A stretch of 64,000 nucleotides of DNA, from positions 8,804,614 through 8,868,613 of the forward strand of contig NC_089273.1 in the NCBI RefSeq assembly GCF_963678975.1, in the 5' to 3' direction. This stretch comes from Dysidea avara (Eukaryota > Porifera > Demospongiae > Dictyoceratida > Dysideidae). The translations under genes were made by a program, and so were the position numbers. The notes beneath the pieces were generated by a model that was given only the letters and a program-made list of their open reading frames with translations, did not search any database and had not been told where the DNA came from. Below, in pieces: positions 1 through 63,295 of this stretch. Each line of letters begins with the position of its first letter. Position 1 is the first letter of the stretch.

Positions 1-538
1 CATCCTGTAGAGAAGAAGTTACCTTGTAGAGAGTTCAGCTACAAAGAAACCATCATGTAGGGAGTTCAGCTACAAAGAAACCACCATGTAGAGAGTTTAG
101 CTACAAACAAATCACCTGTAGAGAGTTCAGCTAGAAACAAATCACCCCGTAGAGAGATCAGCTGGACGAAGTCACCTTGTAGAGAGTTCAGCTACAAAGA
201 AACCATCATGTAGAGAGTTCAGCTGCAAACAAATCACCCTGCAGAGAGTTCAGCTGCAACAAATCACCCTGTAGAGAGTTCAGCTAGACGAAGTCACCTT
301 ATACAGAGTTCAGCTACAAAGAAACCATCATGTAGAGAGTTCGGCTACAAAGACACCACCATGTAGAGAGTTTAGCTGCAAACAAATCACCTGTAGAGAG
401 TTCAGCTAGAAACAAAATACCCTGTAGAGAGACCAGCTAGAAGAGGTTACCTTGTAGAGAGTTCAGCTACAAAGAAACCATCCTGTATATAGTTCAGCTA
501 CATTTCAAGTCACCCAGTAGAGAGATCAGCTGCAAAAA
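1..538 (+). repeat. 30-31 bp minisatellite array (tail of composite copy D)
   Basis: Tandem units of 30-31 bp built on GTAGAGAGTTCAGCTACAAA followed by a variable 10-bp end (such as GAAACCATCAT or CAAATCACCCT). Variant monomers (AGCTACAAAG, AGCTGCAAAC, GATCAGCTAG) alternate, giving a loose higher-order pattern. The array runs off the left edge and leads rightward into the linker and palindrome, the same order as in complete copies A and B. Confidence 0.95.
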
Positions 539-1070
539 AATATCCTGTGGGGAATAATGGGCATGTAATAAATATATGTATATAATTTGTATAATTACTA
601 ATAAAATCAAAAATAATTGAAGTACTAAAATTCTTCTTTAAGTTCTTTTCTTCTTCCTGTAGTAAAGAAAAAAACACATGGGTTAAAAAAGCCCCAAAGC
701 CAGCCATAGGCCGGCTTTGCAGTATACAAATACAAAAAGAAGTGATATCTAATCAAAAACAGCCAAGCTGTAAAAAAAGGTGCGGCCCCCAAAAAGGCCA
801 TGGTGAAAAAAGATGTGAAATCCAAGGTGGCGGCCAAGAAATGGCTGTGATGGTAGGTTAATGGTTACATTTTAATAACAACAATTCAGGTGAATTTTGT
901 GCCGCTTGGTCTTGGCACCAAATTCACCTGAATTGTTGTTATTAAAATGTAACCATTAACCTACCATCACAGCCATTTCTTGGCCGCCACCTTGGATTTC
1001 ACATCTTTTTTCACCATGGCCTTTTTGGGGGCCGCACCTTTTTTTACAGCTTGGCTGTTTTTGATTAGAT
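539..1070 (+). mobile_element. Linker plus palindromic end of composite element (copy D)
   Basis: An AT-rich linker (539-746) contains a GC hairpin (AAAGCC..GGCTTT around 695-720). It leads into a 324-bp palindrome (747-1070) that begins ATCTAATCAAAAACAGCC and ends with the reverse complement GATTAGAT. The two arms are about 155 bp each with a short loop near 905-918. Just inside each end is a small hairpin, ACAGC-TTG-GCTGT. The linker matches those of copies A, B and C almost base for base. Confidence 0.93.
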
Positions 1071-3061: not shown

Positions 3062-3123
3062 TGTAGACTTGTCAATGCTGTAAACTGTATAAACTGTATT
3101 GATCATAGCACATCAGAACACTC

Positions 3124-5235: not shown

Positions 5236-5292
5236 TGCAGACTTGTCAACACCGATCAACTGTAAACTGCTGATAGCACATCAGAGCAGTAT

Positions 5293-6859: not shown

Positions 6860-7490
6860 GAGTGGTAGAGCAGCTCATGTATTTTCGACCCCCATGAGTT
6901 TTAGGACGCGATATTTCCTAGAAGAAAAATGAAAGCCGATCATTTATGGCACTATTATGAAGACCTATCACTTTAACCTCCATGTATAAAATTTGAAAGG
7001 ATTTGGTTATATCGTGTGGCTGCAGTGACCTTCGAAAGCCACTGTCCAAAAAAAATGGATGCTCGGACAAAGTAACGTTCGTTAGGACTCCTCCATCTCT
7101 ACCCTTCCCATGCAACTTATATGCTATTGTGTGGTAGTGATTGGTAGAGCTATCCTTGAGCTATCCCGTGATATAAGCAGATTAGATTTTTATCAGCTAC
7201 AATTGCAGCTATCGCCTTTTTCTCAGACGTGGTAACTTGAAGAATCGTCGAACACAAAATTGCAATTATAATTCCGGACACAGCAACTTATTTCGATTAC
7301 TTTGGCATTTTTTGAGTTTAAGTATAGTACTAGCTAAGAAACATTTGAAAACAGCTATTTAGGCACATGTGTAGAGGGATTTTTTTATCAATTCGAGATG
7401 GAAATAGTAGCTACCTCATTTAGCTACAATACATTAGGTCTAGAATAGCTACATAAAATTGCTCAAACTTAGTAATTTTATATATCAAGA
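6860..7490 (+). repeat. Left inverted arm inside the hAT-like unit
   Basis: Reverse-complementary to 13703-13769, 14477-15001 and 20530-20690 once the mariner-like MITE and the 5.5 kb insertion are removed. Shared landmarks include TGGACAGTGGCTTTCGAAGG, TCCGGAATTATAAT and GGAAATATCGCGTCC. No reading frame is credible on either strand. It supplies the uninterrupted version of two insertion sites. Confidence 0.85.
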
Positions 7491-7495
7491 CACAC

Positions 7496-8357
7496 GGTAG
7501 TGTGTCGTGCGGCCCAAGAAGACGGCGCGCCACACCGTGAGTATATTGACAGGAAGAACGAAAACGTCATTTTCACACCTTTGTATCTCGGTGATCACTT
7601 ATCTGATTGGAACCAAATTTGCTACACAGTTGCCCGCCAGCTAAGGGAGTCTACAATCCAAATTTGAAGGAAATCGCTCCAGCCATTTCCGAGATACGAG
7701 CTGCCAAAGTTTCGTTTTTTTTCCTTCGTTTTTATTTCTTCTACTTCTTCGTCTTTTCGCACACTTGCAAAAATTGCTGTAACAAGCAAACGCGTACTCC
7801 GATCGCCTTGAAATTTGGCACACAGAAAGGGAGTCCAAAGGCGAATCCTAGCATCAAATTTGGTACAAATCCGATTAATGGTTCAGGAGTTATGACCGAT
7901 TATTCGCGTAAAACAAGATCGATTTGTTGTCACGCCTACAGGGTAAACCGCTTCATGGAATGAGTTGAAAATTGCTATGTAGATGGAGTAACCATCGTAG
8001 GAGTTCCTTTTGGTGGTTTGAAAGGAACCGAGATAAAGACCAAGGAGATATGACACAAAACCCAACCTGTGTCACAATTACGCGATCGATTTTTATGAAT
8101 AAAAAAGTATTAGTTTTCACGCCTACTAGGCAAACCGCTTAGAGCAATGAGCTGAAAATCGGTGTATAGCTGGAATAATCTTCATTGAAAGTCCTTGCAG
8201 TAGTACAGAAGAATCGGATTACGAACCACTAAGTTATGATTCGAAAGCCAACTCCGTGTAGCAAATGCGAGATCGAGATACCCTAATAGAACAGTCACCC
8301 TAATAGAGCATTCGGCTAATTTATTTATTCCATTATAGAATTTTATTACATCACAAG
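7496..8357 (+). repeat. 5' module of composite A
   Basis: About 860 bp, more GC-rich than its surroundings, closely matching 35129-35997 and the reverse complement of 32561-33399. It begins with the terminal hairpin, then GCGGCCCAAGAAG and GGCGCGCC. It is internally built of degenerate repeats of about 155-190 bp carrying TCATAACTC-type cores. Open frames of about 116-118 codons (7607-7963) recur in copy B but hold a pyrimidine-tract-derived F-rich segment and match no family I know. It ends with GAGATACCCTAATAGAACAG and CCTAATAGAGCATTCGGC just before the array. Confidence 0.8.
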
Positions 8358-11300
8358 TTATTCTGTAGGGAGTTCAGCTGCAAACAGTTAATCTTATAGA
8401 CAGTTCAGCAAGAAGCAAGTCACCATGTGGAGAGTTAAGCAAATATATCACTATAGAGATTCAGAACATTACAAGTCACACTGAAGAAAGTTCAGCTATA
8501 AACAAGTCATGCACTGTGTATAGAATTCAGCTACAATTAAGTCACTCTCTAGAGAATTCAGTTACACAGAATTCAGCTACACACAAGTCACTGTGGAGAG
8601 AGTTCAGCTACAAACAAATTACCCTTTAGAGTGATCAGCTACAAACAAAACACTTTGCAGGGTGTTCAGCTGCAACAAATCAACCTTTAGAGCGATCAGC
8701 AATGAACAAATCAACACAAATCTACCTGTAGAGAGATAAGCTAGAAACAAATCACCGTATAGAGAGTTCAGCTACAAAAAATCACCCTGTAGAGACATCA
8801 GCTAGAAACTAGACACAATGTAAGGAGTTCAGCTACAAGCAATCACCCTGTAGAGAGTTCAGCTAAAACAAATCAACCTGCAGAGAGATCAGCTACAAAC
8901 AAATCACCTTATAGAGAGTTCAGCTACAAACAAATTACCCTATAGAGAGATCGGCTACAAACAATCAACCTGCAAAGAGATCAGCTACACACAAATCAAC
9001 TTGTAGAGAGTTCAGCTACAAAAAATCACCCTGTAGAGACATCAGCTAGAAACTAGACACAATGTAAGGAGTTCAGCTACAAGCAATCACCCTGTAGAGA
9101 GTTCAGCTAAAACAAATCAACCTGCAGAGAGATCAGCTACAAACAAATCACCTTATAGAGAGTTCAGCTACAAACAAATCACCCTGTAGAGAGTTCAGCT
9201 AAAACAAATCAACCTGCAGAGAGATCAGCTACAAACAAATCACCTTATAGATAGTTCAGCTACAAACAAATTACCTTGTAGAGAGATCGGCTACAAACAA
9301 ATCAACCTGCAGAAAGATCAGCTACACACAATTCAACTTGTAGAGAGTTAAGCTACAAACAGATTACATGTAGAGAGATCGGCTACACACAAATCAACTT
9401 GTAGAGAGATCAGCTACAAACAAATCACCCTGTAGGGAGATCAGCTAGAAACTAGACACAATGTAAGGAGTTCAGCTACAAGCAAATCACCGTGTAGAGA
9501 GTTCAGCTACAAACAAACCAACCTGTAGAGCGATCAGCTAGAAACAAATTACCCTGAAGAGAGGTCAGCTACAAAAAATCACCTTGTAGAGAGATCAACT
9601 ACAAACAAAACATTTTGCAGAGAGTTCAGCTACAAACAAATCAACCTTTAGAGCGATCAGCAACAAACAAATCAACCTGTAGAGAGATCATCTAGAAACA
9701 AATCAACCTACAGAGTTATCAGCTACAAACAAATCAGCTTGTAGAGAGATCAGTTACACACAAATCAACCTGTACAGAGATAAGCTAAAAACAAATCAGA
9801 GTTCAGCTAAAACAAATCAATCTGCAGAGAGATTAGCTACATACAAATCACCTTATAGATAGTTCAGCTACAAACAAATTACCTTGTAGAGAGATCGGCT
9901 ACAAACAAATCACCCTGCAGAGAGATCAGCTACACACAAATCACCTTATAGAGAGTTCAGCTACAAACAAATTACCTTGTAGAGAGATCGGCTACAAACA
10001 AATCACCCTGCAGAGAGATTAGCTACATACAAATCACCTTATAGATAGTTCAGCTACAAACAAATTACCTTGTAGAGAGATCGGCTACAAACAAATCACC
10101 CTGTAGAGAGATCAGCTAGAAACTACACACAATGTAAGGTGTTCAGCTACAAACAAATCACCCTGTAGAGAGATCAGCTACAAACTAGACACAAAGTAAG
10201 GAGTTCAGCTACAAGCAAGTTACCCTGTAGAGAGTTCATCTACAAGCAAATCAACCTACAGAGCAATCAGCTAGAAACAAATCACCCTGAAGAGAGGTCA
10301 GCTAGAAACAAATCACCCTGAAGAGAGGTCAGCTACAAACAAAACACTTTGCAGAGAATTCAGCTACAAACAAATCAGCTTGTAGAGAGATCAGTTACAC
10401 ACAAATCAACCTGTAGAGAGATAAGCTAGAAACAAATCACCCTGTAGAGAGTTCAGCTACAAGCAAAACACCCTGTAGAGAGTTCAGCAACAAAGAAACC
10501 ACCATATAGAGAGTTCAGCTGCAAACAAATCACCTTATAGAGAGTTCAGCTACAAGCAAATTACCCTGTAGAGAGATTAGCTAGAAACTAGACACAGTGT
10601 AAGGAGTTCAGCTACAAGTAAATCAGCCTGTAGAGAGTTCAGCTAAAACAAATCAACCTGTAGAGAGATCAGCTACAAACAAATCACCTTATAGACAGTT
10701 CAGCTACAAATTACCTTGTAGAGAGATCAGCTAAAAATTAATCAACCTGCAGAGAGATCAGCTACACTCAAATCAACTTGTAGAGAGATTAGCTACAAAA
10801 AAATCACCCTGTAGAGAGATCAGCTAGAAACTAGACACAATGTAAGGAGTTCAGCTACAAGCAAATCACCCTTTAGTGAGTTCAGCTACAAACAAATCAA
10901 CCTGCAGTGAGATCACCTACAAAAAAGCACCTTGTACAGAGTTCAGCTACAAACAAATTACCCTGTAGAGAGATCGGCTACAAACAAATCAACCTGTAGA
11001 AAGATCAGCTACACACAAATCAACTTGTAGAGAGATCAGCTACAAACAAATCACCCTGTAGAGAGATCAGCTAGAAACTAGACACAATGTAAGCAGTTCA
11101 GCTACAAGTAAATCACCCTGTAGAGAGTTCAGCTAAAACAAATCAACCTGCAGAGAGATCAGCTACAAATAAATCACTTTATAGACAGTTCAGCTACAAA
11201 CAAATTACCTTGTAGAGAGATCGGCTGCAAATTAGTCAACCTGCAAAGAGATCAACTACACACAAATCAACTTGTAGAGAGATCAGCTACAAACAAATCT

Positions 11301-12853
11301 CCCTGTAGAGAGATCAGCTAGAAACTAGATACAATGCAAGGAGTTCAGCTACAAGCAAAATCACCCTTTAGTGAGTTCAGCTACAAACAAATCAACCTGC
11401 AGTGAGATCACCCACAAAAACGCACTTGTACAGAGTTCAGTTACAAACAAATTACCCTGTAGAGAGATCAGGTAGAAGAATTCACCTTGTAGAGAGTTCA
11501 GCAACTAGGGACCCGCCGATTATGCTCATAATTTTACCTATTATGCTATGCTGCACTGCTCAAAAATTTACCTATTATGCTTAAATTTATGCTCAATACT
11601 TACACATTATGCTCAAATTATGCCCAATTATTTATGCCTCAGTTCTCATGCTCTGCTAATAATTTCCAATTTATGGATAAATAATAAGTGGCTGAAGCAC
11701 AAACTTACTTGTCAAAATGCATATCACAGAAAGGATCGATATACTCTAATAGAACAGTCAGCTATTTGATTGTTCTATTAGAGTATATCGATCTTTCTGT
11801 GATAGCTATTTTGATAAGCAAGAATTCATACTATTACACAAATATTCTACCTATTATGCTAGCATTATGCTCAATGCTTTCAGACACCTATTATGCTCAT
11901 AATTATGCCAGCATAATCGGCGGGTCCCTATCAGCAACAAAGAAACCACCATGTAGAGAGTTCAGCTGCAAACAAATCACCCAGTAGAAAGATCAGCTAG
12001 AAGAAGTTACCTTGTAGAGAGATCAGTTACAAAGAAACCATCATATAGAGAGTTCAGCTACAAAGAAATTACCCCGTAGAGAGTTCAGCTAGAAGAAGTC
12101 ACCTTGTAAAGAGTTCAGCTACAAAGAAACCATCATATAGAGAGTTCGGCTACAAAGAAACCACCTGTACAGAATTCAACTACAAACAAATCACCCTGTA
12201 TAGAGATCAGCTAGAAGAAGTTACCTTGTAGATAGTTAAGCTACAACAATTCACCCTGTAGAAAGATCAGCTAGAAGAAGTCACCTTGTAGAGTGTTCAG
12301 TTACAAAGAAACCATCATGTAGAGAGTTCAGCTGCAAACAAATCACTCTGTAGAGAATTCAGCTACAATGAAACCGCCATGTAGAGAGTTCAGCCTCATA
12401 CAAACCACCTTGTAGAGAATTCAACTACAACAAATCACCCTGTAGAGAAGAAGTTACCTTGTAGAGAGTTCAGCTACAAAGAAACCATCATGTAGGGAGT
12501 TCAGCTACAAAGAAACCACCATGTAGAGAGTTTAGCTGCAAACAAATCACCTGTAGAGAGTTCAGCTAGAAATAAATCACCCCATAGAGAGATCAGCTGG
12601 ACGAAGTCACCTTGTAGAGAGTTCAGCTACAAAGAAACCATCATGTAGGGAGTTCAGCTACAAAGAAACCACCATGTAGAGAGTTTAGCTGCAAACAAAT
12701 CACCTGTAGAGAGTTCAGCTAGAAACAAAATACCCTGTAGAGAGACCAGCTAGAAGAGGTTACCTTGTAGAGAGTTCAGCTACAAAGAAACCATCCTGTA
12801 TATAGTTCAGCTACATTTCAAGTCACCCAGTAGAGAGATCAGCTGCAAAAAAA
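8358..12853 (+). repeat. 4.5 kb 30-31 bp minisatellite array (composite A)
   Basis: Units of GTAGAGAGATCAGCTACAAA plus CAAATCACCCT type. Higher-order blocks are visible; for example the block at about 8787-9028 is repeated from about 9029. A recurring multi-unit motif contains ACTAGACACAATGTAAGGAG. The array is interrupted by a hAT MITE at 11506-11930. No frame is open across it. Confidence 0.95.
11506..11930. mobile_element. hAT-type MITE inside the minisatellite
   Basis: Perfect TIR TAGGGACCCGCCGATTATGC at both ends, flanked by a perfect 8-bp duplication TCAGCAAC (11498-11505 and 11931-11938) made from the minisatellite. The interior has repeated CCTATTATGCTC-type motifs. A nested foldback at about 11722-11804 has arms ATCACAGAAAG and ATCGATATACTCTAATAGAA. 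It is non-coding and related to 47798-48233. Confidence 0.93.
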
Positions 12854-13384
12854 ATATCCTGTGGGGCATAATGGGCATGTAATAAATATATGTATATAAT
12901 TTGTATAATTACTAATAAAATCAAAAATAATTGAAGTACTACAATTCTTCTTTAAGTTCTTTTCTTCTTCCTGTAGTAAAGAAAAAAACGCATGGGTTAA
13001 AAAAGCCCCAAAGCCAGCCATAGGCCGGCTTTGCAGTATACAAATACAAAAAGAAGTGATATCTAATCAAAAACAGCCAAGCTGTAAAAAAAGGTGCGGC
13101 CCCCAAAAAGGCCATGGTGAAAAAAGATGTGAAATCCAAGGTGGCGGCCAAGAAATGACTGTGATGGTAGGTTAATGGTTACATTTTAATAACAACAATT
13201 CAGGTGAATTTTGTGCCGCTTGGTCTTGGCACCAAATTCACCTGAATTGTTGTTATTAAAATGTAACCATTAACCTACCATCACAGCCATTTCTTGGCCG
13301 CCACCTTGGATTTCACATCTTTTTTCACCATGGCCTTTTTGTGGGCCACACCTTTTTTTACAGCTTGGCTGTTTTTGATTAGAT
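12854..13384 (+). mobile_element. Linker and palindromic end of composite A
   Basis: The linker 12854-13060 is nearly identical to 539-746. The palindrome 13061-13384 has ATCTAATC/GATTAGAT ends and arms of about 155 bp. Confidence 0.93.
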
Positions 13385-26119: not shown

Positions 26120-26655
26120 ATCTAATCAAAAACAGCCAAGCTGTAAAAAAAAAGGTGCGGCCCCCAAAAAGGCCATGGTGAAAAAAGATGTGAAATCCAA
26201 GGTGGCAGCCAAGAAATGGCTGTGACGGTAGGTTAACGGTTACATTTTAATAACGACAATTCAGGTGAATTTGGTGCCAAGACCAAGTGGCACAAAATTC
26301 ACCTGAATTGTCGTTATTAAAATTTTTACCATTAACCTACCATCACAGCCATTTCTTGGCCGCCGCCTTGGATTTCACATCTTTTTTCACCATGGCCTTT
26401 TTGGGGGCCGCACCTTTTTTTACAGCTTGGCTGTTTTTGATTAGATATCACTTCTTTTTGTATTTGTATACTGCAAAGCCGGCCTATGGCTGGCTTTGGG
26501 GCTTTTTTTAACCCATGTGTTTTTTTTACCACAGGAAGAAGAAAGAACTTAAAGAAGATTTTTAATGCTTCAATTATTTTTGATTTTATTAGTAATTATA
26601 CAAATTTTATACATATATTTATTACATGCCCATTATTCCCCACAGGATATTTTTT
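26120..26655 (-). mobile_element. Palindrome and linker of composite C
   Basis: The palindrome carries a Lys/Ala-rich open stretch in each arm (AVKKGAAPKKAMVKKD, in the consensus) ending at TGA. The linker is the reverse complement of those at 539-746 and 38322-38525. Confidence 0.92.
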
Positions 26656-28534
26656 TGCAGCTGATCTCTCCACTGGGTGACTTGAAATGTAGCTGAACTA
26701 TATACAGGATGGTTTCTTTGTAGCTGAACTCTCTACAAAGTGACCTCTTCTAGCTGGTCTCTCTACAGGGTGATTTGTTTCTAGCTGAACTCTCTACAGG
26801 TGATTTGTTTGCAGTTAAACTCTCTACATGGTGGTTTCTTTGTAGCTGAACTCTCTACATGATGGTTTCTTTGTAGCTGAACTCTCTATAAGGTGACTTC
26901 GTCCAGCTGATCTCTCTACGAGGTGATTTGTTTCTAGCTGAACTCTCTACAGGTGATTTGTTTGCAGCTAAACTCTCTACATGGTGGTTTCTTTGTAGCT
27001 GAACTCCCTACATGATGGTTTCTTTGTAGCTGAACTCTCTACAAGGTAACTTCTTCTCTACAGGGTGATTTGTTGTAGTTGAATTCTCTACAAGGTGGTT
27101 TGTTTGAGGCTGAACTCTCTACATGGTGGTTTCTTTGTAGCTGAACTCTCTACAGAGTGATTTGTTTGCAGCTGAACTCTCTACATGATGGTTTCTTTGT
27201 AACTGAACACTCTACAAGGTGACTTCTTCTAGCTGATCTTTCTACAGGGTGAATTGTTGTAGCTGAACTATCTACAAGGTAACTTCTTCTAGCTGATCTC
27301 TCTACAGGGTGATTTGTTTGTAACTGGACTCTCTGCATGATGGTTTCTTTGTAGCTGAACTCTCTACAAGGTGACTTCTTCTAATTGATCCCTCTACAGG
27401 GTGATTTATTTGTAGCTGAACTCTCTACAAGTGATTTATTTGCAGCTGAACTCTTTATGTGGTGGTTTCTTTGTAGCTGAACTCTCTACAAGGTGACCTC
27501 TTCTAGCTGATCTCTCTACAGGGTGATTTGTTTCTAGCTGAACTCTCTACAGGTGATGTTTTGCAGCTAAACACTCTACATGGTGGTTTCTTTGTAGCTG
27601 AACTCTGTACATGATGGTTTCTTTGTAGCTGAACTCATTACAAGGTGAATTCTTCTAGCTGAACTCTCTACGGGGTAATTTCTTTGTAGTTGAACCCTCT
27701 ACATGGCGGTTTCTTTGTTGCTGAACTCTCTACAAGGTGAATTCTTCTACCTGATCTCTCTACAGAGTAATTTGTTTGTAACTGAACTCTGTACAAGTGC
27801 ATTTTGTGGGTGATCGCACCGCAGGTTTGATTTGTTTGTAGCTGAACTCACTAAAGGGTCATGCTGAACTCCTTGCATTGTGTCTAGTTTCTAGCTGATC
27901 TCTCTACAGGGTGATTTGTTTGTAGCTGATCTCTCTACAAGTTGATTTGTGTGTAGCTGATCTTTCTACAGGTTGATTTGTTTGTAGCCGATCTCTCTAC
28001 AGGGTAATTTGTTTGTAGCTGAACTCTGTACAAGGTGCTTTTTTGTAGGTGATCTCACTGCAGGTTGATTTGTTTGTAGCTGAACTCACTAAAGGGTGAT
28101 TTGCTTGTAGCTGAACTCCTTACATTGTGTCTAGTTTCTAGCTGATCTCTCTACAGGGTGATTTGTTTGTAGCTAATCTCTCTACAAGTTGATTTGAGTG
28201 TAGCTGATCTCTCTGCAGGTTGATTAATTTTTAGCTGATCTCTCTACAAGGTAATTTGTTTGTAGCTGAACTGTCTATAAGGTGATTTGTTTGTAGCTGA
28301 TCTCTCTGCAGGTTGATTTGTTTTAGCTGAACTCTCTACAGGCTGATTTACTTGTAGCTGAACTCCTTACACTGTGTCTAGTTTCTAGCTAATCTCTCTA
28401 CAGGGTAATTTGTTTGTAGCTGAACTCTCTATAAGGTGATTTGTTTGCAGCTGAACTCTCTACATGGTGGTTTCTTTGTTGCTGAACTCTCTACAGGGTG
28501 TTTTTCTTGTAGCTGAACTCTCTACATGGTGATT
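26656..28534 (-). repeat. Minisatellite array of composite C, distal part
   Basis: Reverse-orientation 30-31 bp units with alternating monomer types. It stops exactly at the inserted TGTGAC element and resumes after it. Confidence 0.95.
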
Positions 28535-29175
28535 TGTGACTGAATTTGACAAAACAAGGCTTCGACGCACAAAGCTTTGTTAGGAGATATGGCGATTTTA
28601 AGGAATCATTGTGTAATAACTTCCCAGTGCCTACAGCTGTGCAAACAAAATTTGCACCAATTGTTCATCTGTTCACTGGCTATCACTGAGTGGGTGTATA
28701 CATTTCTGATACCCAAAATTTGCCCTGTTTTGAGCAGCTTTTTTCGAGCGGATAATAATATCACAGATGGTAGTACTAAGGGTGGGAGGGTGGGGGTGAA
28801 CGGTGGTCTTAATATACGGGTATAAAATGGAGTAAGAAGACGATTGGAGTCCAGAGGCCAAGTTTGGGCTCTCCATGGCCCTCCATGGCCCTCAAATTAC
28901 TCCAAATTGACTGAGAACACTATTGGCGAGCTCTCTGTGAAGTCCCAGCTCACTACACACCATTATCACAAAGCCATGGCCATTTAATGGTGCCAATCTC
29001 ACAATCGTGGCTTTGACAGGGTCGGAAGAATGCTGCTACAGAAACCAGACTTGCCAGTGCTGAAGCAAGTACAGTGTGAAATATGATAGTGTATTAGACC
29101 AGCTATCCATTTCTGGTAAAATCGTAAGTTTGATTTTGTGTGCGTGGAAGCCTTGTTATATGAAATCCGGTCACA
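28535..29175. mobile_element. TGTGAC-family TIR element inserted in the minisatellite
   Basis: TGTGACTGAATTTGACAAAA on the left; right end CTTGTTATATGAAATCCGGTCACA on the plus strand. Inner GGCTTCGACGCAC is inverted as GTGCGTGGAAGCC. The array reads GGTGATTTGTTT when the element and one TT are removed, so the target duplication is TT. 641 bp with no credible gene. Confidence 0.85.
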
Positions 29176-32100
29176 TTTGTTTCTAGCTTATCTCTCTACA
29201 GGTTGATTTGTGTGTAACTGATCTCTCTACAAGTTGATTTGTTGTAGCTGAACTCTCTGTAAAGTGTTTTGTTTGTAGCTGACCTCTCTTCAGGGTGATT
29301 TGTTTCTAGCTGATCTCTCTACAGGGTGATTTTTTGTAGCTGACATGTCTTCAAGGTGATTTGTTTCTAGCTGATTGCTCTACAGGTTGATTTGTTTGTA
29401 GATGAACTCTCTACAGGATAATTTGCTTGTAGCTGAACTCCTTACGTTGTGTCTAGTTTGTAGCTGATATCTCTACAGGGTGATTTGTTTGTAGCTGATC
29501 TCTATACAAGTTGATTTGTGTGTAGCTGATCTCTCTGCAGGGTGATTTGTTTGTAGCCGATCTCTCTACAAGGTAATTTGTTTGTAGCTGAACTATCTAT
29601 AAGGTGATTTATTTGTAGCTGATCTCTCTGCAGATTGATTTGTTTTAGCTGAACTCTCTACAGGGTGATTTGTTTCTTGCTTATCTCTCTACAGGTTGAT
29701 TTGTGTGTAACTGATCTCTCTACAAGCTGATTTGTTTGTAGCTGATCACTGTGTAGGTTGATTTGTTTCTAGATGATCTCTCCACAGGTCGATTTGTTTG
29801 TAGCTGAACTCTCTGCAAAGTGTTTTGTTTGTAGTTGATCTCTCTACAAGGTGATTTTTTGTAGCTGACCTCTCTTCAGGGTGATTTGTTTCTAGCTGAT
29901 CGCTCTACAGGTTTGTTTGTTTGTAGCTGAACTCTCTACAGGGTGAATTGCTTGTAGCTGAACTCCTTACATTGTGTCTAGTTTCTAGCTGATCTCTCTA
30001 CAGGGTGATTTGTTTGTAGCTGATCTCTCTACAAGTTGAATTGTGTGTAGCTGATCTCTCTGCAGGTTGATTTGTTTGTAGCTGATCTCTCTACAAGGTA
30101 ATTTGTTTGTAGCTGAACTGTCTAAAAGGTGATTTGTTTGTAGCTGATCTCTCTACAGGTTGATTTGTTTTAGCTGAACTCTCTACAGGGTGAATTGTTT
30201 GTAGCTGAACTCTTTACAAGGTAATTTCTTCTAGCTGATCTCTCTACAGGGTGATTTGTTTGTAGTAAAATTCTGTACAGGTGATTTGTTTGCAGCTGAG
30301 CTCTTTACAGAATGGTTTCTTTGTAGCTGAACTCTCTACAAGGTAACTTCTTCTAACTGATCTTTCTACAGGGCAATCTGTTTGTGGCTGAATTTTGTAC
30401 AGGGTGATTTCTTTGCAGCTGAACTCTCTACATGGTGGTTTCTTTGTAGCTGAACTCTCTACAAGGTAATTTCCTCTAGCTCATCTCTCTACAGGGTGAT
30501 TTGTTTGTAGCTGAATTCTCTACATGGTGTTTTCTTTGTAACTGAACTCTCTACAAGGTAACTTCTTCTAGCTGATCTTTCTACAGGGTGATTTGTTTGT
30601 AGCTGAATTTTGTACAGGTGATTTGTTTGCAGCTGAGTTCTTTACAGAATGGTTTCTTTGTAGCTGAACTCTCTACAAGGTAACTTCTTCTAGCTGATGT
30701 CTCTACAAGGTATAGTTTATAGCTGAACTCTCTACATGGTGGTTTAGTTGTAACTAAACTCTCTACAAGGTGATTTCTTCTAGCTGATCTTTCTACATGG
30801 TGATTTGTTTGTAACTGAACTCTCTACAAGGAAACTTCTTCTAGCTGATCTCTCTACAGGGAGATTTGTTTGTAGCTGAACTATCTACTAGATAACTTCT
30901 TCTAGCTGATCTCTCTACAGGGAGATTTGTTTGTAGCTGAACTCTCTACAGGTGATTTGTTTGCAGCTGAACTCTCTACATGATGGTTTCTTTGTAGCTG
31001 AACTCCCTAATACAAGGTAACTTCTTCTAGCTGAACTCTCTACATGGTGGTTTGTGTGTAGCTGAACTCTCTACAAGGTGACTTCTTCTAGCTGATCTTT
31101 CTACAGGGTGATTTGTTTGTAGATGAACTATCTACAAGGTAACATCTTCTAGCTAATCTCTCTACAGGGTGAATTGTTTGTAGCTGAACTATCTACAAGG
31201 TAACTTCTTCTAGCTGATCTCTCTACAGGGTGATTTATTTGTAACTGAACTCTCTACATGATGATTTCTTTATAGCTGAACTCTCTACAAGATAACTTCT
31301 TCTAGCTGATCTCTCTACAGGGACATTTGTTTGTAGCTGAACTCTCTACAGGTGATTTGTTTGCAGCTGAACTCTCTACATGATGGTTTCTTTGTAGCTG
31401 AACTCCCTAATACAAGGTAACTTCTAGCTGAATTCTCTACATGGTGGTTTCTTTGTAGCTGAACTCCCTAATACAAGGTGACTTCTTCTAGCTGATCTTT
31501 CTACAGGGTGGTTTGTTGTTTGTAGCTGAACTATCTACAAGGTAACATCTTCTAGGAGCTCTCTCTACAAGGTGAATTGTTTGTAGCTGAACTCTCTATA
31601 GGGTTATCTGTTTGTAATAGAACTCTCTACAGGATAGTGTCTTTGTAGCTGCTCTCTCTATGGGGTGACTTGTTTCTAGCTGATCTCTCTGCAGGGTGAT
31701 CTGTTCGTAGCTGAACTTTCTACAGGATGATTTGTTTGCAGCTGAACTCTTTATATGATGGTTTCTTTGTAGCTGAGCTCTGTACAAGGTAACTTCTTCT
31801 AACTGATCTCTCTATATAGGGTGACTTGTTTGTAGCTGAACGATCTGCAGAGTGATTTGTTTGTAGTTGAACTCTCTACGGTGATCCTTCTAGCTGATCT
31901 CTCTACATTATGACTTTTTCTAGCTGAACTCTCTACAGGGTGATCTGTTCATAGCTGCACTGTCTACAGGGTGATATGTTTGCAGCTGAACTCTCTACAT
32001 GGTGGTTCTTTTGTAACTAAACTCTCTATAAGGTGATGACTTGTAGCTGATCTCTCTACTGGATGACTAATTGTTTCTAGCTGATCTCTCTATAGAGTTA

Positions 32101-32560
32101 TAACTTTCTCTATAGAGTTATAACATGTTTGTATAGCTGAACTCTTTACAGAGTGGTTTTTTTGGTTGGTTGCTGAACTCTCCAGCTACACGGTGACTTG
32201 TTTGTACTACAGAGTGACTTGTTTGTAGCTGAAGTCTCTACAGAGTGACTTACTTGTAACTGAACATTGCATAAAGTAACTTGTTTGTAGCTGATCTAGA
32301 TGAACTCTCTGCTGGGTAGCTATTTTGTAGCTGAACCCTTTACGCAGTGACTTGCTTGTAGCTGAATTCTCTACAGAGTGACTTGTTGTCTCTACAAGGT
32401 GACTTGTTTATAGCTGAATTCTCTTCAGTGTGACTTATAATGTTCTGAATCTCTACAGCAACATATTTGTAGCTGAACTCTCTACAGGGTGACTTGCTTG
32501 TAGCTGAATTGTCTATAAGATTAACTGTTTGTAGCTGAACTCCCTACAGAATAACTTGCA
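29176..32560 (-). repeat. Minisatellite array of composite C, proximal part
   Basis: Over 100 reverse-orientation units. Regular in 29200-31560, increasingly degenerate toward 32560 next to the module. Confidence 0.94.
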
Positions 32561-33399
32561 ATGTCATATAATTCTGTAATGGAGTAAGTTATATACGTAG
32601 CTGAATGCTCTATTAGAGTGACTGTTCTATTAGAGTATCTCGATCTCGTATATGCTACACGTAGTTGGCTTTGGAATCATAACTCAGTGGTTTATAATCC
32701 GATTCTTCTGTACTACTGCAAGGAATTTCTATGATAATTATTCCAGCTACACACCGATTTTCAGCTCACTGCTCTAAGTGGTTTGCCTGGTAGGCGTGAA
32801 AACTAATAGTTTTTTTTCATAAAAATCGATCACGTAATTGTGACACAGGTTGGGTTTTGTGTCATATCTCGATGGCCTTTATCTGGATTCCTTTCAAACC
32901 ACAAAAGGCACTCTTACGATAGTTACTCCATCTGCATAGCAATTTTCAGCTCATTCCTTCAAGCGGTTTACCCTGTGGGCGTGAAAGACCTTCGACCTTA
33001 TTTTACGCAAATAATTGGTCATAACTCCGTGAATGTTCATCGGATTCCTACCAAACATGATACTGAGATTTGCTTTAATGAGCCCTTTAAGTGTACCAAA
33101 TTTCAGCCCGATTGGAGCACGAATTCACGTTTTATGGCGGATTTTGCAAAGTGTGCGAAAAGAAGAAGAAAAAAAACCCTAACTTTGGCCTCTCGTATCT
33201 CGGAAATGGCTGGAGCGATTTTCTTCAAATTTGGAATGTGGACTCCGCGACCTAGCCGGCACTTCTGTAGCAACTTTAGGTTCAATCGAATAAGGAATCA
33301 CGGAGCTACAAAGGTGTGAAAATCGCTTTTACTTTCTTCCTGTAAATATACTCACGGTGTGGCGCGCCGGCTACTTGGGCCGCACGACACAGTGTCTTG
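32561..33399 (-). repeat. 5' module of composite C
   Basis: Reverse complement of the modules at 7496 and 35129. On the plus strand an open frame of 159 codons (32840-33319) contains a basic patch CAKRRRKK. A matching antisense peptide fragment occurs in the other copies, but frames are not conserved end to end. The tandem internal repeat shows as CATAACTC-type cores at about 32675, 32862, 33018 and 33190. Terminal sequence ...GTGTCTTG. Confidence 0.8.
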
Positions 33400-33942
33400 A
33401 TTCCCTTCATTCGGATTTATCCAGCTATACCAAACAACATTATGCAAATGAATATAAATTGTGTACTAGAATTCCATTCTTCTCCAACTTAGTGCGATAA
33501 ACACTGTTTTATCCTAAGACTTCTTCCTCTCCCCCATAACAGAGTCTCCTAGATCTTCCTATACTTGAAGGGAACATGAAATATATTATCCACGAAATCA
33601 TAGGTTTAGTAAAGCTTCAATCAGCAGCTATAGGGGCTGCACCACCCTAGACCAATATTTCCTGAGAAATAGTGTACTTTGAAGATTTCGAAGTTTTTTA
33701 TAATACAGTGTAGTGCGTATAGTAAATTTAGTTAGTGATCTGTGATGTATTCTAGTGTGTGCTCTGAATTAAATTTGAATAATCGTTTTATTCTGTTGAA
33801 TGACATGACACTAATAATGCTAGATGAAAATGTAGTGCAACTGTACTGAAATACTCTACCAGGTTATAATGTACATGCTGTGATTACAATACTAATAGCT
33901 ACATGATAATCAGTCAAATAACACACATCATCACTGATGAAG
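33400..33942 (-). other. 3' flank of FReD-4
   Basis: Homologous to about 24167-24723 downstream of FReD-3, including the AATAAA signal at 33787-33792 and TTCTCCAACTTAGTGC. No other gene. Confidence 0.75.
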
Positions 33943-34415: not shown

Positions 34416-34490
34416 ATATAATCTATGCAAAATTACTAATTATGGAGCTTGTTCTGCGCCATAACATTAGCTAAAATATTGTTTATCCCT

Positions 34491-34645: not shown

Positions 34646-35128
34646 AACATCCAACATATGATACACACCAGTGGTACAGCAAGTTACATCATTACTTGTT
34701 ATAATTTATGTGAATATCTCTAGTGTGAACTGGTGTGGTAGCTACAGAAACAGACACATCATGTGTCTAGCTGTCGAACTAGTGTTTATAATGTTTAGGT
34801 AGCAAGTCATTCAGTATAATATTATAACAAATGATAACTAACACTCTATAACCAAAGTGATATTTTATATTTTTCTATAAAGAAGTGTACATACGCTATA
34901 GGGCAGGGAGATTATACATATCAAATGTGGAATTGATCGTGATTGTCTTTGAACATTGTGATGTTGATATATATTATAAATAATCGTGACGCTATGTAAA
35001 TGTATATCAATAATGGTGGCACATACACGACCAGGAAAACAAGCCCGATACAGTTCATTGTGTGAAGAAATCTTACTGCATAGTTAAAAGCATACCTGTT
35101 AGAAACCATTCAATTCTAAAGATACTAT
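34646..35128. other. Outer flank of FReD-4, no gene
   Basis: To about 34975 it matches the flank of FReD-3 (25813-26119). The last 150 bp before composite B are unique and non-coding. Confidence 0.65.
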
Positions 35129-35997
35129 CAAGACACACGGTAGTGTGTCGTGCGGCCCAAGAAGCCGGCGCGCCACACCCGTGAGTATATTGACAGGAAG
35201 AACGAAAACGTCATTTTCACACCTTTGCATCTCAGTGATCACTTATCCGATTGGAACCAAACTTACAACACAATTGCCCGCCACCCAGGGGAGTCTACAT
35301 TCCAAATTGGAAGGAAATCGCTCCAGCCATTTCCGAGATACGAACTGCCACAGTTTCGTTTTTTTTCTTGGTTTTTTTTTTCTTCTTCGTCTTTTCGCAC
35401 ACTTGCAAAAATTGCTATAACAAGCAAACGCGTACTCCGATCGCCTTGAAATTTGGCACACAGAAAGGGAGTCCAAAGGGGAATCCTAGCATCAAATTTG
35501 GTACACATCCGATGAATGATTCAGGAGTTATGACCGATTATTCGCGTAAAACAAGATCGATTTGTTGTCATGCCTACAGGGTAAACCGCTTCATGGAATG
35601 AGTTGAAAATTGCTATGTAGATGGAGTAACCATCGTAGGAGTGCATTTTGGTAGTTTGAAAGGAATCGAGATAAAGACCATGGAGATATGACACAAACCC
35701 CAACCTGGGTCACAATTACGCTATCGATTTTTACGAATAAAAAAGTATTAGTTTTCACGCCTACTAGGCAAACCGCTTAGAGCAATGAGCTGAAAATCGG
35801 TGTATAGCTGGAATAATCTTCATAGAAAGTCCTTGCAGTAGTACAGAAGAATCGGATTACAAACCACTGAGTTATGATTCTAAAGCCAACTCCGTGTAGC
35901 AAATGTGAGATCGAGATACTCTAATAGAACAGTCACCCTAATAGAGCATTCGGCTAATTTATTTACTCCATTATAGAATTTTATTACATCACAAGTT
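35129..35997 (+). repeat. 5' module of composite B
   Basis: Almost identical to 7496-8357. A 116-codon frame (35251-35601) matches the 118-codon frame of copy A. Its phenylalanine tract comes from a polypyrimidine run, so I do not call it a gene. Confidence 0.8.
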
Positions 35998-38321
35998 ATT
36001 CTGTAGGGAGTTCAGCTGCAAACAGTTAATCTTATAGACAGTTCAGCAAGAAGCAAGTCACCATGTGGAGAGTTAAGCAAATATATCACTATAGAGATTC
36101 AGAACATTACAAGTCACACTGAAGAAAGTTCAGCTATAAACAAGTCATGCACCCTGTAGAGAATTCAGCTACAATTAACTCACGCTCTAGAGAATTCAGC
36201 TACACAAAATTCAGCTACACACAAGTCACTGTGGAGAGAGTTCAGCTACAAACAAATTACCCTGTAGAGAGATCAGCTACAAATAAAACACTTTGCAGAG
36301 TGTTCAGCTACACCTGTACAACAAATCTACCTTTAGAGCGATCAGCAATGAACAAATCAACACAAATCTACCTGTAGAGAGATAAGCTAGAAACAAATCA
36401 CCGTATAGAGAGTTCAGCTACAAAAAATCGCCCTGTAGAGACATGAACTAGAAACTAGACACAATGTAAGGAGTTCAGCTACAAGCAATCAACCTCTAGA
36501 GAGTTCAGCTAAAACAAATCAACCTGCAGAGAGATCAGCTACAAACAAATCACCTTATAGAGAGTTCAGCTACAAACAAATTACCCTGTAGAGAGATCAG
36601 CTAGAAACTAGACACAATGTAAGGAGTTCAGCTACAAGCAAATCACTCTGTAGAGAGTTCAGCTAAAGCAAATCAACCTGCAGAGAGATCAGCTACACAC
36701 AAATCAACTTGTAGAGAGATCAGCTACAAACAAATCACCCTGTAGAGAGATCAGCTAGAAACTAGACACAATGTAAGGAATTCAGCTACAAGCAAATCAC
36801 CCTGTAGAGAGTTCAGCTAAAACAAATCAACCTGCAGAGAGATCAGCTACACACACATCAACTTGTATAGAGATCAGCTACAAACAAATCACCCTGTAGA
36901 GAGATCAGCTAGAAACTAGACACAATGCAAGGAGTTCAGCTACAAGCAAATCACCCTTTAGTGAGTTCAGCTACAAACAAATCAAACCTGCAGTGAGATC
37001 ACCCACAAAAACGCACCTTGTACAGAGTTCAGTTACAAACAAATTACCCTGTAGAGAGATCAGGTAAAAGAATTCACCTTGTAGAGAGTTCAGCAACAAA
37101 GAAACCACCATGTAGAGAGTTTAGCTGCAAACAAATCACCCAGTAAAAAGATCAGCTAGAAGAAGTCACCTTGTAATGAGTTCAGCTACAAAGAAACCAT
37201 CATGTACAGAGTTCAGCTACAAAGAAACCACCATGTAGAGTGTTTAGCTGCAAAAAATCACCTGTAGAGAGTTCAGCTAGAAACAAATCACCCTGTAGAG
37301 AGATCAGCTAGAAGAGGTCACCTTGTAGAGAGTTCAGCTACAAAGAAACCACCACATAAAGAGTTCAGCTGCAAATAAATCACTTGTAGAGAGTTCAGCT
37401 AAAAATTTATTCCCCTGTAGAGGGATCAGCTAGAAGAAGTCACCTTGTAGAGAGTTCAGCTACAAAGAAACCATCATGTACAGAGTTCAGCTACAAATAA
37501 ATCACCCTGTAGAGGGATCAGCTAGAAGAAGTCACCTTGTAGAGAGTTCAGCTACAAAGAAATCATCATGTAGAGAGTTCAGTTACAAATAAATCACCCT
37601 GTAGAGAGATCAGCTAGAAGAAGTTACCTTGTAGATAGTTCAGCTACAAAAAATTCACCCTGTAGAAAGATCAGCTAGAAGAAGTCACCTTGTAGAGTGT
37701 TCAGTTACAAAGAAACCCTCATGTAGAGAGTTCAGCTGCAAACAAATCACTCTGTAGAGAGTTCAGCCTCAAATAAACCACCTTGTAGTGAATTCAACTA
37801 CAACAAATCACCCTGTACAGAAGAAGTTACCTTGTAGAGAGTTCAGCTACAAAGAAACCATCATGTAGGGAGTTCAGCTACAAAGAAACCACCATGTAGA
37901 GAGTTTAGCTGCAAACAAATCACCTGTAGAGAGTTCAGCTAGAAACAAATCACTTCGTAGAGAGATCAGCTCGACGAAGTCACCTTGTAGAGAGTTCAGC
38001 TACAAAGAAACCATCATGTAGAGAGTTCAGCTGCAAACAAATCACCCTGTAGAGAGTTCAGCTACAAAAAAATCACCCTGTAGAGAGTTCAGCTAGACGA
38101 AGTCACCTTATAGAGAGTTCAGCTACAAAGAAACCATCATGTAGAGAGTTCAGCTACAAAGAAACCACCATGTAGAGAGTTTAGCTGCAAACAAATCACC
38201 CTGTAGAGAGACCAGCTAAAAGAGGTCACCTTGTAGAGAGTTCAGCTACAAAGACACCATCCTGTATATAGTTCAGCTACATTTCAAGTCACCCAGTAGA
38301 GAGATCAGCTGCAAAAAAATA
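35998..38321 (+). repeat. Minisatellite array of composite B
   Basis: About 75 forward-orientation 30-31 bp units. The first 400 bp are degenerate in the same way and order as the start of array A (8358-8750), and the last 700 bp parallel the end of array A. Confidence 0.95.
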
Positions 38322-38857
38322 TCCTGTGGGGAATAATGGGCATGTAATAAATATATGTATATAATTTGTATAATTACTAATAAAATCAAAAATAATTGAA
38401 GTATTACAAATCTTCTTTAAGTTCTTTTCTTCTTCCTGTGGTAAAGAAAAAAACACATAGGTTAAAAAAGCCCCAAAGCCAGCCATAGGCCGGCTTTGCA
38501 GTATACAAATACAAAAAGAAGTGATATCTAATCAAAAACAGCCAAGCTGTAAAAAAACGTGCAGCCCCCAAAAAGGCCATGGTGAAAAAAGATGTGAAAC
38601 CCAAGGTGGCGGCCAAGAAATGGCTGTGATGGTAGGTTAATGGTTACATTTTAATAACGACAATTCAGGTGAATTTTGTGCCACTTGGTCTTGGCACCAA
38701 ATTCACCTGAATTGTCGTTATTAAAATGTAACCATTAACCTACCATCACAGCCATTTCTTGGCCGCCACCTTGGATTTCACATCTTTTTTCACCATGGCC
38801 TTTTTGGGGGCCGCACCTTTTTTTACAGCTTGGCTGTTTTTGATTAGATTATTCTTT

Positions 38858-40113: not shown

Positions 40114-42556
40114 AGAGATCAGCCAGAAGAAGGTTCCTTGTAGAGAGTTCAGCTACAAACAAATCTCCGTGTAGAGAGATCAGCTAGAAGAAGTTTCCAT
40201 GTAGAGAGTTCAGCTACAAACAAATCACCCTGTAGAAAGATCAGCTAGAAGAAGTTACCTTGTGGAGAGTTCAGCTACAAAGAAACCATATTGTAGAGAG
40301 TTCAGCTGCAAATAAATCACCTATAGAGAGTTCAGCTACAAACAAACCTCCCTGTAGAGAGATCAGCTAGAAGAAGTTTCCTTGTAGAGAGTTCAGCTAC
40401 AAAGAAACCAACATGTAGAGAGTTCAGCTGCAAATAAATCACCTGTAGAGAGTTAAGCTACAAACAAATCTCCCTGTAGAGAGATCAGCTAGAAGAAGTC
40501 ACCTTGTAGAGAGTTCAGTTACAAAGAAGCCATCATGTAGAGAGTTCAGCTGCAAACAAATCACCTGTAGAGAGTTCAGCTACAAACAAATCTCCCTGTA
40601 GAGAGATCAGCCAGAAGAAGTTTCCTTGTAGAGAGTTCAGCTACAAACAAATCACCCTGTAGAAAGATCAGCTAGAAGAAGTTACTTTGTGGAGAGTTCA
40701 GTTGCAAAGAAATCATCATGTAGAGAGTTCAGCTGCAAACAAATCACCTGTAGAGAGTTCAGCTACAAACAAATCTCCCTGTAGAGAGATCAGCTAGAAG
40801 AAGTTTCCTTGTAGAGGATTCAGCTACAAACAAATCACCCTGTAGAATGATCAGCTAGAAGGAGTCACCTTGTAGAGAGTTCAGTTACAAAGAAATCATC
40901 ATGTAGAGAGTTCAGCTACAAACTAGTGACCTTGTAGAGACATCAGCTAAAAGAAATTACCTTGTAGAGAGTTCAGCTACAAAGAAACCATCATGTAGAG
41001 AGTTCAGCTGCAAACAAATCACCTGTAGAGAGTTCAGCTACAAAAAAATCTCCCTGTAGAGAGATCAGCTAGAAGAAGACACCTTGTAGAGAGTTCAGTT
41101 ACAAACAAATCACCCTGTAGAAAGATCAGCTGCAAACAAATCACCTGTAGAGAGTTCAGCTACAAACAAATCTCCCTGTAGAGAGATCACCTAGAAGAAG
41201 TTACCTTGTAGAGAGTTCAGCTACAAAGAAACCATCATGTAGAGAGTTCAGCTGCAAACAAATCACCTGTAGAGAGTTCAGCTACAAACAAATCTCCCTG
41301 TAGAGAGATCAGCCAGAAGAAGTTTCCTTGTAGAGAGTTCAGCTACAAACAAATCACCCTGTAGAAAGATCAGCTAGAAGAAGTTACTTTGTGGAGAGTT
41401 CAGTTGCAAAGAAATCATCATGTAGAGAGTTCAGCTGCAAACAAATCACCTGTAGAGAGTTCAGCTACAAACAAATCTCCCTGTAGAGAGATCAGCTAGA
41501 AGAAGTTTCCTTGTAGAGGATTCAGCTACAAACAAATCACCCTGTAGAATGATCAGCTAGAAGGAGTCACCTTGTAGAGAGTTCAGTTACAAAGAAATCA
41601 TCATGTAGAGAGTTCAGCTACAAACTAGTGACCTTGTAGAGACATCAGCTAAAAGAAATTACCTTGTAGAGAGTTCAGCTACAAAGAAACCATCATGTAG
41701 AGAGTTCAGCTGCAAACAAATCACCTGTAGAGAGTTCAGCTACAAAAAAATCTCCCTGTAGAGAGATCAGCTAGAAGAAGACACCTTGTAGAGAGTTCAG
41801 TTACAAACAAATCACCCTGTAGAAAGATCAGCTGCAAACAAATCACCTGTAGAGAGTTCAGCTACAAACAAATCTCCCTGTAGAGAGATCACCTAGAAGA
41901 AGTTACCTTGTAGAGAGTTCAGCTACAAAGAAACCATCATGTAGAGAGTTCAGCTGCAAACAAATCACCTGTAGAGAGTTCAGCTACAAACAAATCTCCC
42001 TGTAGAGAGATCAGCTAGAAGAAGTTTTCTTGTAGAGGGTTCAGCTACAAACAAATCACCCTGTAGAAAGATCAGCTAGAAGAAGTTACCTTGTAGAGAG
42101 TTCAGCTACAAAGAACCATCATGTAGAGAGTTCAGCTGCAAGCAAATCACCTGTAGAGAGTTAAGCTACAAACAAATCACCCTGTAGAGAGATCAGCTAG
42201 AAGAAATTACCTTGTAGAGAGTTCAGTTACAAAGAAACCACCATGTAGAGAGTTCAGCTTCAAAGAAATCACCCTGTAGAAAATTCAGCCACAAACAAAT
42301 TGCCCTGTAGAAAGATCAGTTAGAAGAAGTTACCTTGTAGAGAGTTCAGCTACAAAGAAACTATTCTGTAAAGAGCTCAGCTGCAAACAAATTACCTGCA
42401 CAGAATTCAGCTACAAACAAATCACCCTGTAGAGAGATCAGCTAGAAGAAGTTACCTTGTAGATTGTTCAGCTACTAACAATTCACCCTGTAGAAAGGGC
42501 AGCAAGAAGAAGTCACCTTGTAGAGTGTTCAGTTACAAAGAAACCACCATGGAGAG
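40114..42556 (+). repeat. Minisatellite array F with a 702-bp tandem duplication
   Basis: 30-31 bp units. The segment about 40510-41211 is repeated as 41212-41913. The landmarks AGCCAGAAGA (40609 and 41311) and GACATCAGCTAAAAG (40939 and 41641) are both exactly 702 bp apart, and the copies differ at only a few bases. Confidence 0.93.
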
Positions 42557-43066
42557 TTCTGTAATAAATATATGTACAGAATTATATATATAATTACAGA
42601 TAAAATCAGAAATATTTAAAGTACATCTGCTTCATGTTTTCTTCTTCCTGTGGTAAAGAAAAAAAAGACAGGTTAAAAAAGTCCCAAAACCGGCCATAGG
42701 CCGGCTTTATGGTATACAAATACAAAAAGAAATGAAATCTAATCCAAAACAGCCAAGCTGTAAAAAAAAACAGTGCGGCCCTCAAAAGGCTATGGTGAAA
42801 AAAGATGCAAAATCCAAGGTGGCGGCCAAGAAATGGCTGTGATGGTAGGTTAATTGTAAAAATTTTAATAACGGCAATTTAGGCAAAATTTTTGCCAAGA
42901 CCAAGCGGCACAAAATATCACCTGAATTGTTGTCATTAAATTTTTACCATTAACCTACCATTACAGCCATTTCTTGGTCGCCACATTGGATTTCACATCT
43001 TTTTTCACCATAGCCTTTTTGAGGGCCACACTGTTTTTTTACAGCTTGGCTGTTTTTGGAATAGAT
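40114..43066 (+). mobile_element. Composite element copy F (no module)
   Basis: Array 40114-42556, linker about 42557-42736, palindrome 42737-43066 of the ATCTAATCC subfamily, with more arm mismatches than A-D. The left end lacks the module. The right end abuts the orphan FReD upstream block. Confidence 0.87.
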
Positions 43067-62550: not shown

Positions 62551-63295
62551 ACGTGGATCGATATTTCCATGATCGTGAGTGTTTTTTAAATTCCGTGTGC
62601 AAAGCTCTAAATAAAGGCTGAAAGCTTGTGAGAGGTGATATTTTCCGGCCTCATCAGAGCTAGTGGAGTTCGGTAGCTATCTCAGCATAATGTAGTGTGT
62701 CATTGTTTCGAAGTAGACAAGAATGAAGATTTAGCCGCACACGAAGTCGTAAGACTGGTTAATTTAAAGCTTTAGTGCAGGCGAGTGCAGGTGATTCGGG
62801 GACGGAGATTGCAGATTAGCTATGTAGGTTTAAGATTAGATAGCTACTGGAAAGTCAGCTCAGCTGGTTTTCCCAGGGGGTGAAAATCCCCAAAAGGTAC
62901 AATCACATGCATACTGTACATTCTATTAAACTAATAATTAAGATTAATTAAGTAAGTGTGCAAGGCCATGTGTGACTTCTCTGGGGAGGCATATTTTTAA
63001 GCCTATAAGAGTGTAATCCACGAAAGTAAACTCCCACTGTAGTTATTTGTTGCTAGTTGTGTGTCTCTGAGCTGCTGAGCAGTCTGAGCAAGAAATTTTT
63101 CAGAAGGACAGTTAGTTATTGCTGCATCCCAGAGCCAAAACATTGTTGCAGTGTGTAACCAACGGCAGACTGATCCAGCATTGATTAGCACTTTTTCTTC
63201 TGATACAGATCAAGGAAAATTGGTCAGTCAAAAATAATAGCTATGGCCTTTTTTATAATACTTGCAATTGTGTTTTACGTACGTAGCTATAGCAT
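62551..63295. other. Unique stretch, no assignable gene
   Basis: A 62-codon minus-strand frame (63003-63191, VCRWLHTATMFWLWDAA) extends upstream to an AG at about 63205 that could be a splice acceptor, but no family is recognisable and no donor is convincing. Confidence 0.35.

Follow-up and report, generated by a model that had tools for sequence, protein, structure and literature searches.

The 64,000-nucleotide stretch of the genome of the sponge Dysidea avara analysed here (assembly GCF_963678975.1, contig NC_089273.1, positions 8,804,614 to 8,868,613 of the forward strand; hereafter the window) contains three full-length members, copies A, B and C, of one high-copy mobile family. The elements consist of a 5′ module, a 31-bp minisatellite, a linker and a terminal palindrome of 322 bp, and complete elements are 3.2–7.6 kb long. 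They have unlike ends, lie between an A and a T without visible target duplication, and move as whole units. The arms of the palindrome change together, and its asymmetric centre seems to have been inverted more than once. The family is probably a high-copy, non-autonomous, Helitron-like (HUH-type rolling-circle) transposon.

Unity, ends and insertion sites

The assembly (550.8 Mb in 108 contigs) was searched with the 5′ module and with the linker plus palindrome, giving 2252 and 2440 first-look candidates, respectively, of which 40 were scored in each case; copy numbers are therefore to be read as candidate counts. Among the candidates scored, at least 40 match the module at ≥96% identity, far above chance, and at least 40 match the linker and palindrome at ≥98%. 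Twenty loci of 10 kb (L009–L028) were taken around ranks 2–21 of the 40 best module matches, rank 1 being copy A. As best matches to one module they are biased toward young complete copies, and two of them, L019 and L025, represent one segmental duplicate.

In 18 of these 20 loci the module is followed by array, linker and palindrome in the same order and polarity (17 of 19 distinct loci without the duplicate; L010 was counted as complete although the first bases of its element lie outside the fetched stretch). In the remaining two the module runs into other DNA (L015) or is followed by an oppositely oriented copy (L024). A second line of evidence is a miniature inverted-repeat transposable element (MITE) of 426–462 bp nested in the array, a part absent from the original prediction. 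It has identical junctions and the same 8-bp duplication in copy A, L014, L016, L019/L025, L020, L022, L023 and L028, i.e., in eight distinct copies and one segmental duplicate at different genomic places. The MITE was inserted once into an ancestral element and then carried along; therefore, the unit moves whole. The claim of the original prediction that the parts form one composite repeat is borne out by these two observations. The co-occurrence that it proposed to check is strong from the module side and weaker from the palindrome side: three of the seven palindromes in the window have a module, three have none and one is cut by the window start.

Copies L014 and L022 illustrate how the units vary in length. 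From the left end to about position 1800 they are 97–100% identical per 150-bp interval, and beyond this point 95–100%, with the register shifted by 1.9 kb in a single switch inside the array. One array gap thus separates the two copies, and array length changes inside otherwise faithful copies; in general it differs between copies through internal gaps. The longest ATG-initiated frame in 21 complete elements is 101 aa, so the elements encode no transposase.

All 25 5′ ends in the window and in L009–L028 (TCAAGACAC...TCGTGCGGC; 24 distinct flanks) are preceded by A, and the last A of every listed palindrome end is followed by T. The 5′ terminus is TC, as in canonical Helitrons. Empty sites were sought by comparing the joined 200-bp flanks of 19 elements with the window and the fetched loci. 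Matches spanning the joint were obtained for five of the 19 and are clean for three. The empty site of copy A is found at window positions 13767–13598, in the other arm of a foldback element split by A; that of L016 occurs twice, at window 6307–5920 and at L020 3087–3420, with a 4-bp difference 5 bp past the joint; and that of L017 lies at L028 9424–9752, with 77% identity. All three place the insertion exactly between A and T (A^T, the caret marking a junction), with no visible target duplication. L012, whose joint is not clean, is situated inside the array of a further copy, and the flank match of L026, at 65–72%, was not used. The foldback element, one arm of which is split by copy A, is larger and occupies window positions of about 7420–7484 and 13384–13767.

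The two ends are not terminal inverted repeats of each other (5′ TCAAGACACAC versus TCTAATCAAAAA for the reverse complement of the 3′ end). No poly(A) tail is present at the 3′ end, and no target duplication beyond a possible AT is seen at the clean empty sites. Among 100 end matches in the window and fetched loci (38 5′ ends and 62 palindrome arms, a set that includes inner arms and overlapping loci), two neighbouring pairs lie within 60 bp of each other, both head to tail, and none is head to head or tail to tail. One of the joins, in L005, has no spacer (TTTAGA^TCAAGACAC). Head-to-tail joins of Helitrons are reported in PMC2267711 and PMC5876387. Here successive insertion is as likely as a concatemer, because an ordinary A^T target also results where the last A of one element meets the first T of the following one. 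Four elements are found in L005 2340–3605 and L012 1–9949 (C2, about 10.81–10.82 Mb): three follow one another head to tail, and the array of the second contains the fourth.

The terminal palindrome

The palindrome of copy A folds, as DNA, into a single stem with a 10-nt loop. No Rfam family reaches its gathering threshold in the window, and no clear solo palindrome occurs in the window and fetched loci, short fragments in L019/L025 and L022 being left aside. The alignment comprises 25 of 29 linker-associated palindromes (L014 1027–1349 and three of L026 were left out). After removal of the duplicate L025, the asymmetric centre is inverted in seven of 24 palindromes and not inverted in 15; two, L013 and the copy at window 21189, have a shortened loop and were not called. 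The loop and the adjacent unlike bases turn as a block in each of the six young flipped copies (one of these bases is lacking in L022), and the diverged copy at window 40114 was called flipped on the loop and one neighbour. The centre of L026 is doubled, with parts in both orientations.

Trees were calculated with the centre left out. In the tree based on module, linker and arms, five of the flipped copies group together in a clade (support 100/96), the placement of flipped L021 remaining unresolved; in a tree of the last 1.45 kb the five-copy clade is recovered (100/99) and L021 is the sister of unflipped L009 with full support. L026 is labelled flipped in the former tree and was left out of the latter, and the duplicate L025 is in neither. 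A single flip event, with all six flipped copies in one clade, is rejected for the last 1.45 kb (approximately unbiased test, p 5.7e-5), and a random flip at each transposition is ruled out by the five flipped copies in one supported clade. As judged from the trees, at least two inversions of the end seem to have occurred among young copies, the orientation being inherited otherwise. Misalignment of the tandem arrays may inflate the difference, and exchange between copies could move a flipped centre; both are reservations on the rejection of a single flip.

Outside the centre, 126 arm pairs were compared, the pairing being taken from the fold of one copy. In 21 cells both arms depart from the consensus, and in all 21 the changes are complementary; they fall at eight pair positions, several being common to related copies. 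In 48 cells one arm only is changed. With the partner slid by 1–3 positions as a control, 0–7 two-arm cells are obtained. In addition, the diverged copy E_b of L005 lacks 8–9 bp at mirror positions in both arms, a deletion that would hardly be explained by base-by-base selection on pairing. The complementary two-arm changes and the mirror deletion suggest that one arm was probably copied from the other through the hairpin.

Copies and other features in the window

The positions of the copies and of their parts are collected in Table 1. All parts described in the original prediction were found in the order and polarity given there, with copies A, B and C complete; its coordinates for these copies agree within about 11 bp with the ends defined by flanks and empty sites. 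The 5′ hairpin is intact in A and B and reduced in C (GACACTGTGTC), and the palindrome of A measures 322 bp (325 bp in the original prediction).

Table 1. Members of the family in the window and the parts of copy A.
Feature	Position	Strand	Basis
Copy A, complete element, 5899 bp, A^TCAAGACAC...GATTAGA^T	7485..13383	+	flanks, empty site at window 13767–13598
5′ terminal hairpin of copy A, GACACAC-GGTA-GTGTGTC	7489..7506	+	sequence, DNA fold
5′ module of copy A; no long reading frame; about 96–98% identity among copies listed	7485..8350	+	
31-bp minisatellite array of copy A; higher-order periods such as 61, 92, 153; interrupted by MITE	8522..12853	+	Tandem Repeats Finder (TRF)
MITE nested in array of copy A, 426 bp; terminal inverted repeats, 8-bp target duplication TCAGCAAC	11507..11932	.	
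Linker of copy A	12854..13061	+	
Short linker hairpin of copy A, AAAGCCAGCCATAGGCCGGCTTT, 29 bp before CTAA^T	13011..13033	+	fold, alignment
Terminal palindrome of copy A, 322 bp, 10-nt loop; start A^TCTAATC, end GATTAGA^T	13062..13383	+	
Copy B, complete element, 3721 bp	35128..38848	+	flanks, 5′ end
Copy C, complete element, 7280 bp; more diverged (module 83%)	26121..33400	-	flanks, 5′ end
Array, linker and palindrome, cut by window start	13..1069	+	
Diverged module-less copy: array, linker, palindrome with shortened loop	21189..22518	-	
Diverged module-less copy; palindrome loop in inverted orientation	40114..43065	+	
Deletion remnant: one palindrome arm, preceded by array scrap	44764..44929	+	
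Array running off window end	63295..64000	+	TRF

A 17-mer, CTCTAATAGAACAGTCA, occurs 19 times in the window with up to two mismatches, versus 0 in 100 shuffles (8281, 11744, 11767, 13464, 13606, 32602–32635, 35919, 43542–43579, 43944, 45532, 47998–48067, 49917–49960, 60485 and 60681). It is found in several repeat types, including the module end, the MITE inside copy A and the foldback element split by A, and is a motif common to unlike mobile elements. The window further contains a 73-bp tandem repeat at 54283–55472 (16.4 copies, 91% matches), with a unit unlike the 31-bp minisatellite, and short self-complementary repeats of the TACCATACGCGTATGGTA type at 15009–15147 and 17912–17968. By eye, fibrinogen-related-like frames are recognized on the minus strand at 2318–3112, 4537–5280, 24724–25368, 33943–34338 and 51087–51893, and the stretches 25600–26118, beside copy C, and 34420–34970, beside copy B, resemble a local duplication.

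Classification, mechanism and comparison with known systems

The original prediction could not match the repeat with confidence to a described class. This view is not upheld, since A^T insertion, a TC 5′ end, unlike ends and a 3′ palindrome make up a Helitron-type pattern, though without CTRR. The family works like a non-autonomous Helitron; it is not filed as a canonical one because it ends in GATTAGA^T and not in CTRR, encodes nothing, and showed no autonomous partner among the Helitron matches compared.

Helitron genes are plentiful in the assembly, with 150 scored matches to Helitron_like_N, more than 30 of them with open frames over 1000 aa. By eye, HUH-like (LPHAHF), two-tyrosine-like (YVLKY) and Walker A motifs are recognized in the frame of L036, which has a tandem RDTAARREARLDPVTRNEEQ-like repeat near its start. 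The genes in L029–L048 were probably active recently, because they are about 96–99.7% alike in most of the 60 pairwise comparisons listed (minimum 94.3%). Of the 150 matches, 81 were compared with the positions of the family. A single match is closer than 15 kb to any of the 40 modules, being located 3.6 kb upstream of it; the 40 3′ ends listed have no such neighbour. Two candidate partners were rejected. In L015, a DDE_3-like frame (E 5e-5, below Pfam's cut-off) and a weak DUF927-like frame begin after the module has broken off abruptly within the first unit of the array, and the 8.6 kb fetched beyond contain no match to array, linker or palindrome; therefore, the DDE_3-like gene appears to belong to the neighbouring DNA. 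In L043, a module copy of 84% identity stands in opposite orientation to a Helitron gene, where the alignment of the gene family breaks off, and is read as a probable nested insertion. The exact 5′ end pattern has no match in viral contigs.

In the proposed mechanism, a RepHel-type protein acting in trans would nick at A^TC at the left end, and one strand would be peeled off through the array as far as the palindromic right end (GATTAGA^T), where transfer would stop. Either this strand or a circular form would then be inserted between A and T, carrying along the array and anything nested in it. The right end itself may have a composite history. Canonical Helitrons end in CTRR^T after a hairpin, which lies nearer to the end than the hairpin considered here. 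In copy A the 23-nt linker hairpin precedes CTAA^T at the inner palindrome border; the hairpin is kept in six of seven aligned copies, and CTAA is present at this border in all seven, followed by T in six. The right end might have arisen by read-through of this older CTAA^T terminus into flanking DNA, the product having folded back and been copied into a giant palindromic terminator. Experiments with Helraiser, as described in PMC4778049, show read-through past the 3′ end and the origin of new 3′ ends. By eye, one frame of the palindrome arm may resemble a lysine-rich, histone-H1-like tail, as would be expected of captured gene sequence. Folding of the strand at the right end could also allow one arm to be occasionally recopied from the other and the centre to be occasionally inverted. 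A more specific version, in which the right end is a giant self-priming hairpin of a rolling-circle transposon, sometimes resolved like a parvovirus telomere, is doubtful. In it, the 3′ arm would serve as primer for copying the 5′ arm into a second strand, and the hairpin would be opened by a nick at the inner A^TCTAATC, which repeats the sequence of the outer end on the opposite strand; refilling would then turn the centre over.

Several observations weigh against the Helitron-like reading and its account of the palindrome. The 3′ terminus, TAGA^T, does not conform to CTRR. An end-sharing partner was not found among the 81 of 150 listed Helitron matches compared, the ends of the Helitrons not being read. 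Arm partners slid by two columns still give seven two-arm changes, 5–7 of them complementary. Three of the seven window palindromes lack a module, and incomplete old copies are therefore common. Finally, the empty sites fit equally well a 2-bp AT target duplication around an element CAAG...GATTAG. This last point would suit a derivative of a cut-and-paste DDE transposon with a palindrome that is a coincidental foldback, as would the DDE_3-like frame after the module of L015. Such an origin is nevertheless improbable: the ends are not mutual inverted repeats (TCAAGACACAC versus TCTAATCAAAA), and the L015 gene lies beyond the point where the module breaks off. The module-less copies at window 21189, 40114 and 44764 could be taken as a sign that several independent repeats lie together by chance, an idea with a negligible prospect in view of the 18 of 20 module loci that are complete in one order, and refuted for young copies by the shared nested MITE and the whole-unit empty sites. 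Equally negligible is the prospect of a composite retroelement of SVA type, mobilized by target-primed reverse transcription. SVA elements follow a plan of module, variable number tandem repeat and module, which the family resembles; its sharp 5′ ends, the lack of a 3′ poly(A) and the lack of a target duplication beyond the possible AT speak against it.

A further rival is a non-autonomous Helentron element (HINE) with central tandem repeats. HINEs such as DINE-1 and the oyster Cg_HINE share the plan of 5′ block, central repeats and 3′ palindrome, but use TT or T-rich target sites and have subterminal inverted repeats, according to PMC4067079 and PMC7492417. The A^T site contradicts such insertion, and the family is not filed as Helentron or HINE for this reason. 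In addition, when the first 74 bp are compared with the palindrome arms, the best match has a score of 18, which equals the 95% point of 500 shuffles, so that subterminal inverted repeats are not apparent there (the rest of the module was compared with the arms without a control); a motif shared by 5′ end and palindrome, GTGCGGCCC, is no better than shuffled sequence. Membership in this group is very improbable. A rival of a different kind, otherwise compatible with the Helitron-like reading, concerns the palindrome: its changes might be ordinary gene conversion and inversion, of the kind expected for any long inverted repeat, without a role in transposition, for which the chances fall somewhat short of even. 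Orientation is inherited within a lineage, as the clade of five flipped copies indicates, and conversion between arms is known for large palindromes. The arms are, however, only 10 nt apart, which would be short for conventional inter-arm recombination, and the doubled centre of L026, in both orientations, is as template switching at a hairpin would give.

The family is a natural example of a Helitron-type right end that turned into a 322-bp palindrome, and it nevertheless spread widely (>2000 first-look candidates). Mirror-image changes, a mirror deletion and an inverted centre would form a sequence record of how this end is copied, which bears on how Helitrons recognize and remake their 3′ end, a question that is not settled. 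Tandem arrays and nested transposons spread as cargo, which bears on the dispersal of satellite-like DNA. In the literature searched, mostly at the level of abstracts, a Helitron ending in a long palindrome that inverts was not noticed, which does not prove that none has been reported.

Among known systems, foldback elements and MITEs likewise have a long palindrome able to fold on itself, whereas the palindrome here stands at one end of a larger element. Parvovirus genomes have two unlike ends and a terminal hairpin in flip and flop orientations. Both orientations also occur in the family, not at random but clustered in clades by inheritance, and the long palindrome is present at one end only. 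HINEs are alike in their 5′ block, fixed-orientation central tandem repeats, 3′ palindrome and high copy number, and differ from the family in insertion site and in having a far shorter palindrome. Canonical Helitrons, such as the Helibat/Helraiser derivatives, share with it the TC 5′ end, insertion at A^T with no visible target duplication, left and right ends that differ from each other, a 3′ palindrome, head-to-tail junctions and the absence of coding capacity. Their 3′ end is CTRR instead of TAGA, and their palindrome of 16–20 bp lies some 10–15 bp upstream of the end, whereas the 322-bp palindrome of the Dysidea family reaches the very end, inverts, and has arms that change together.

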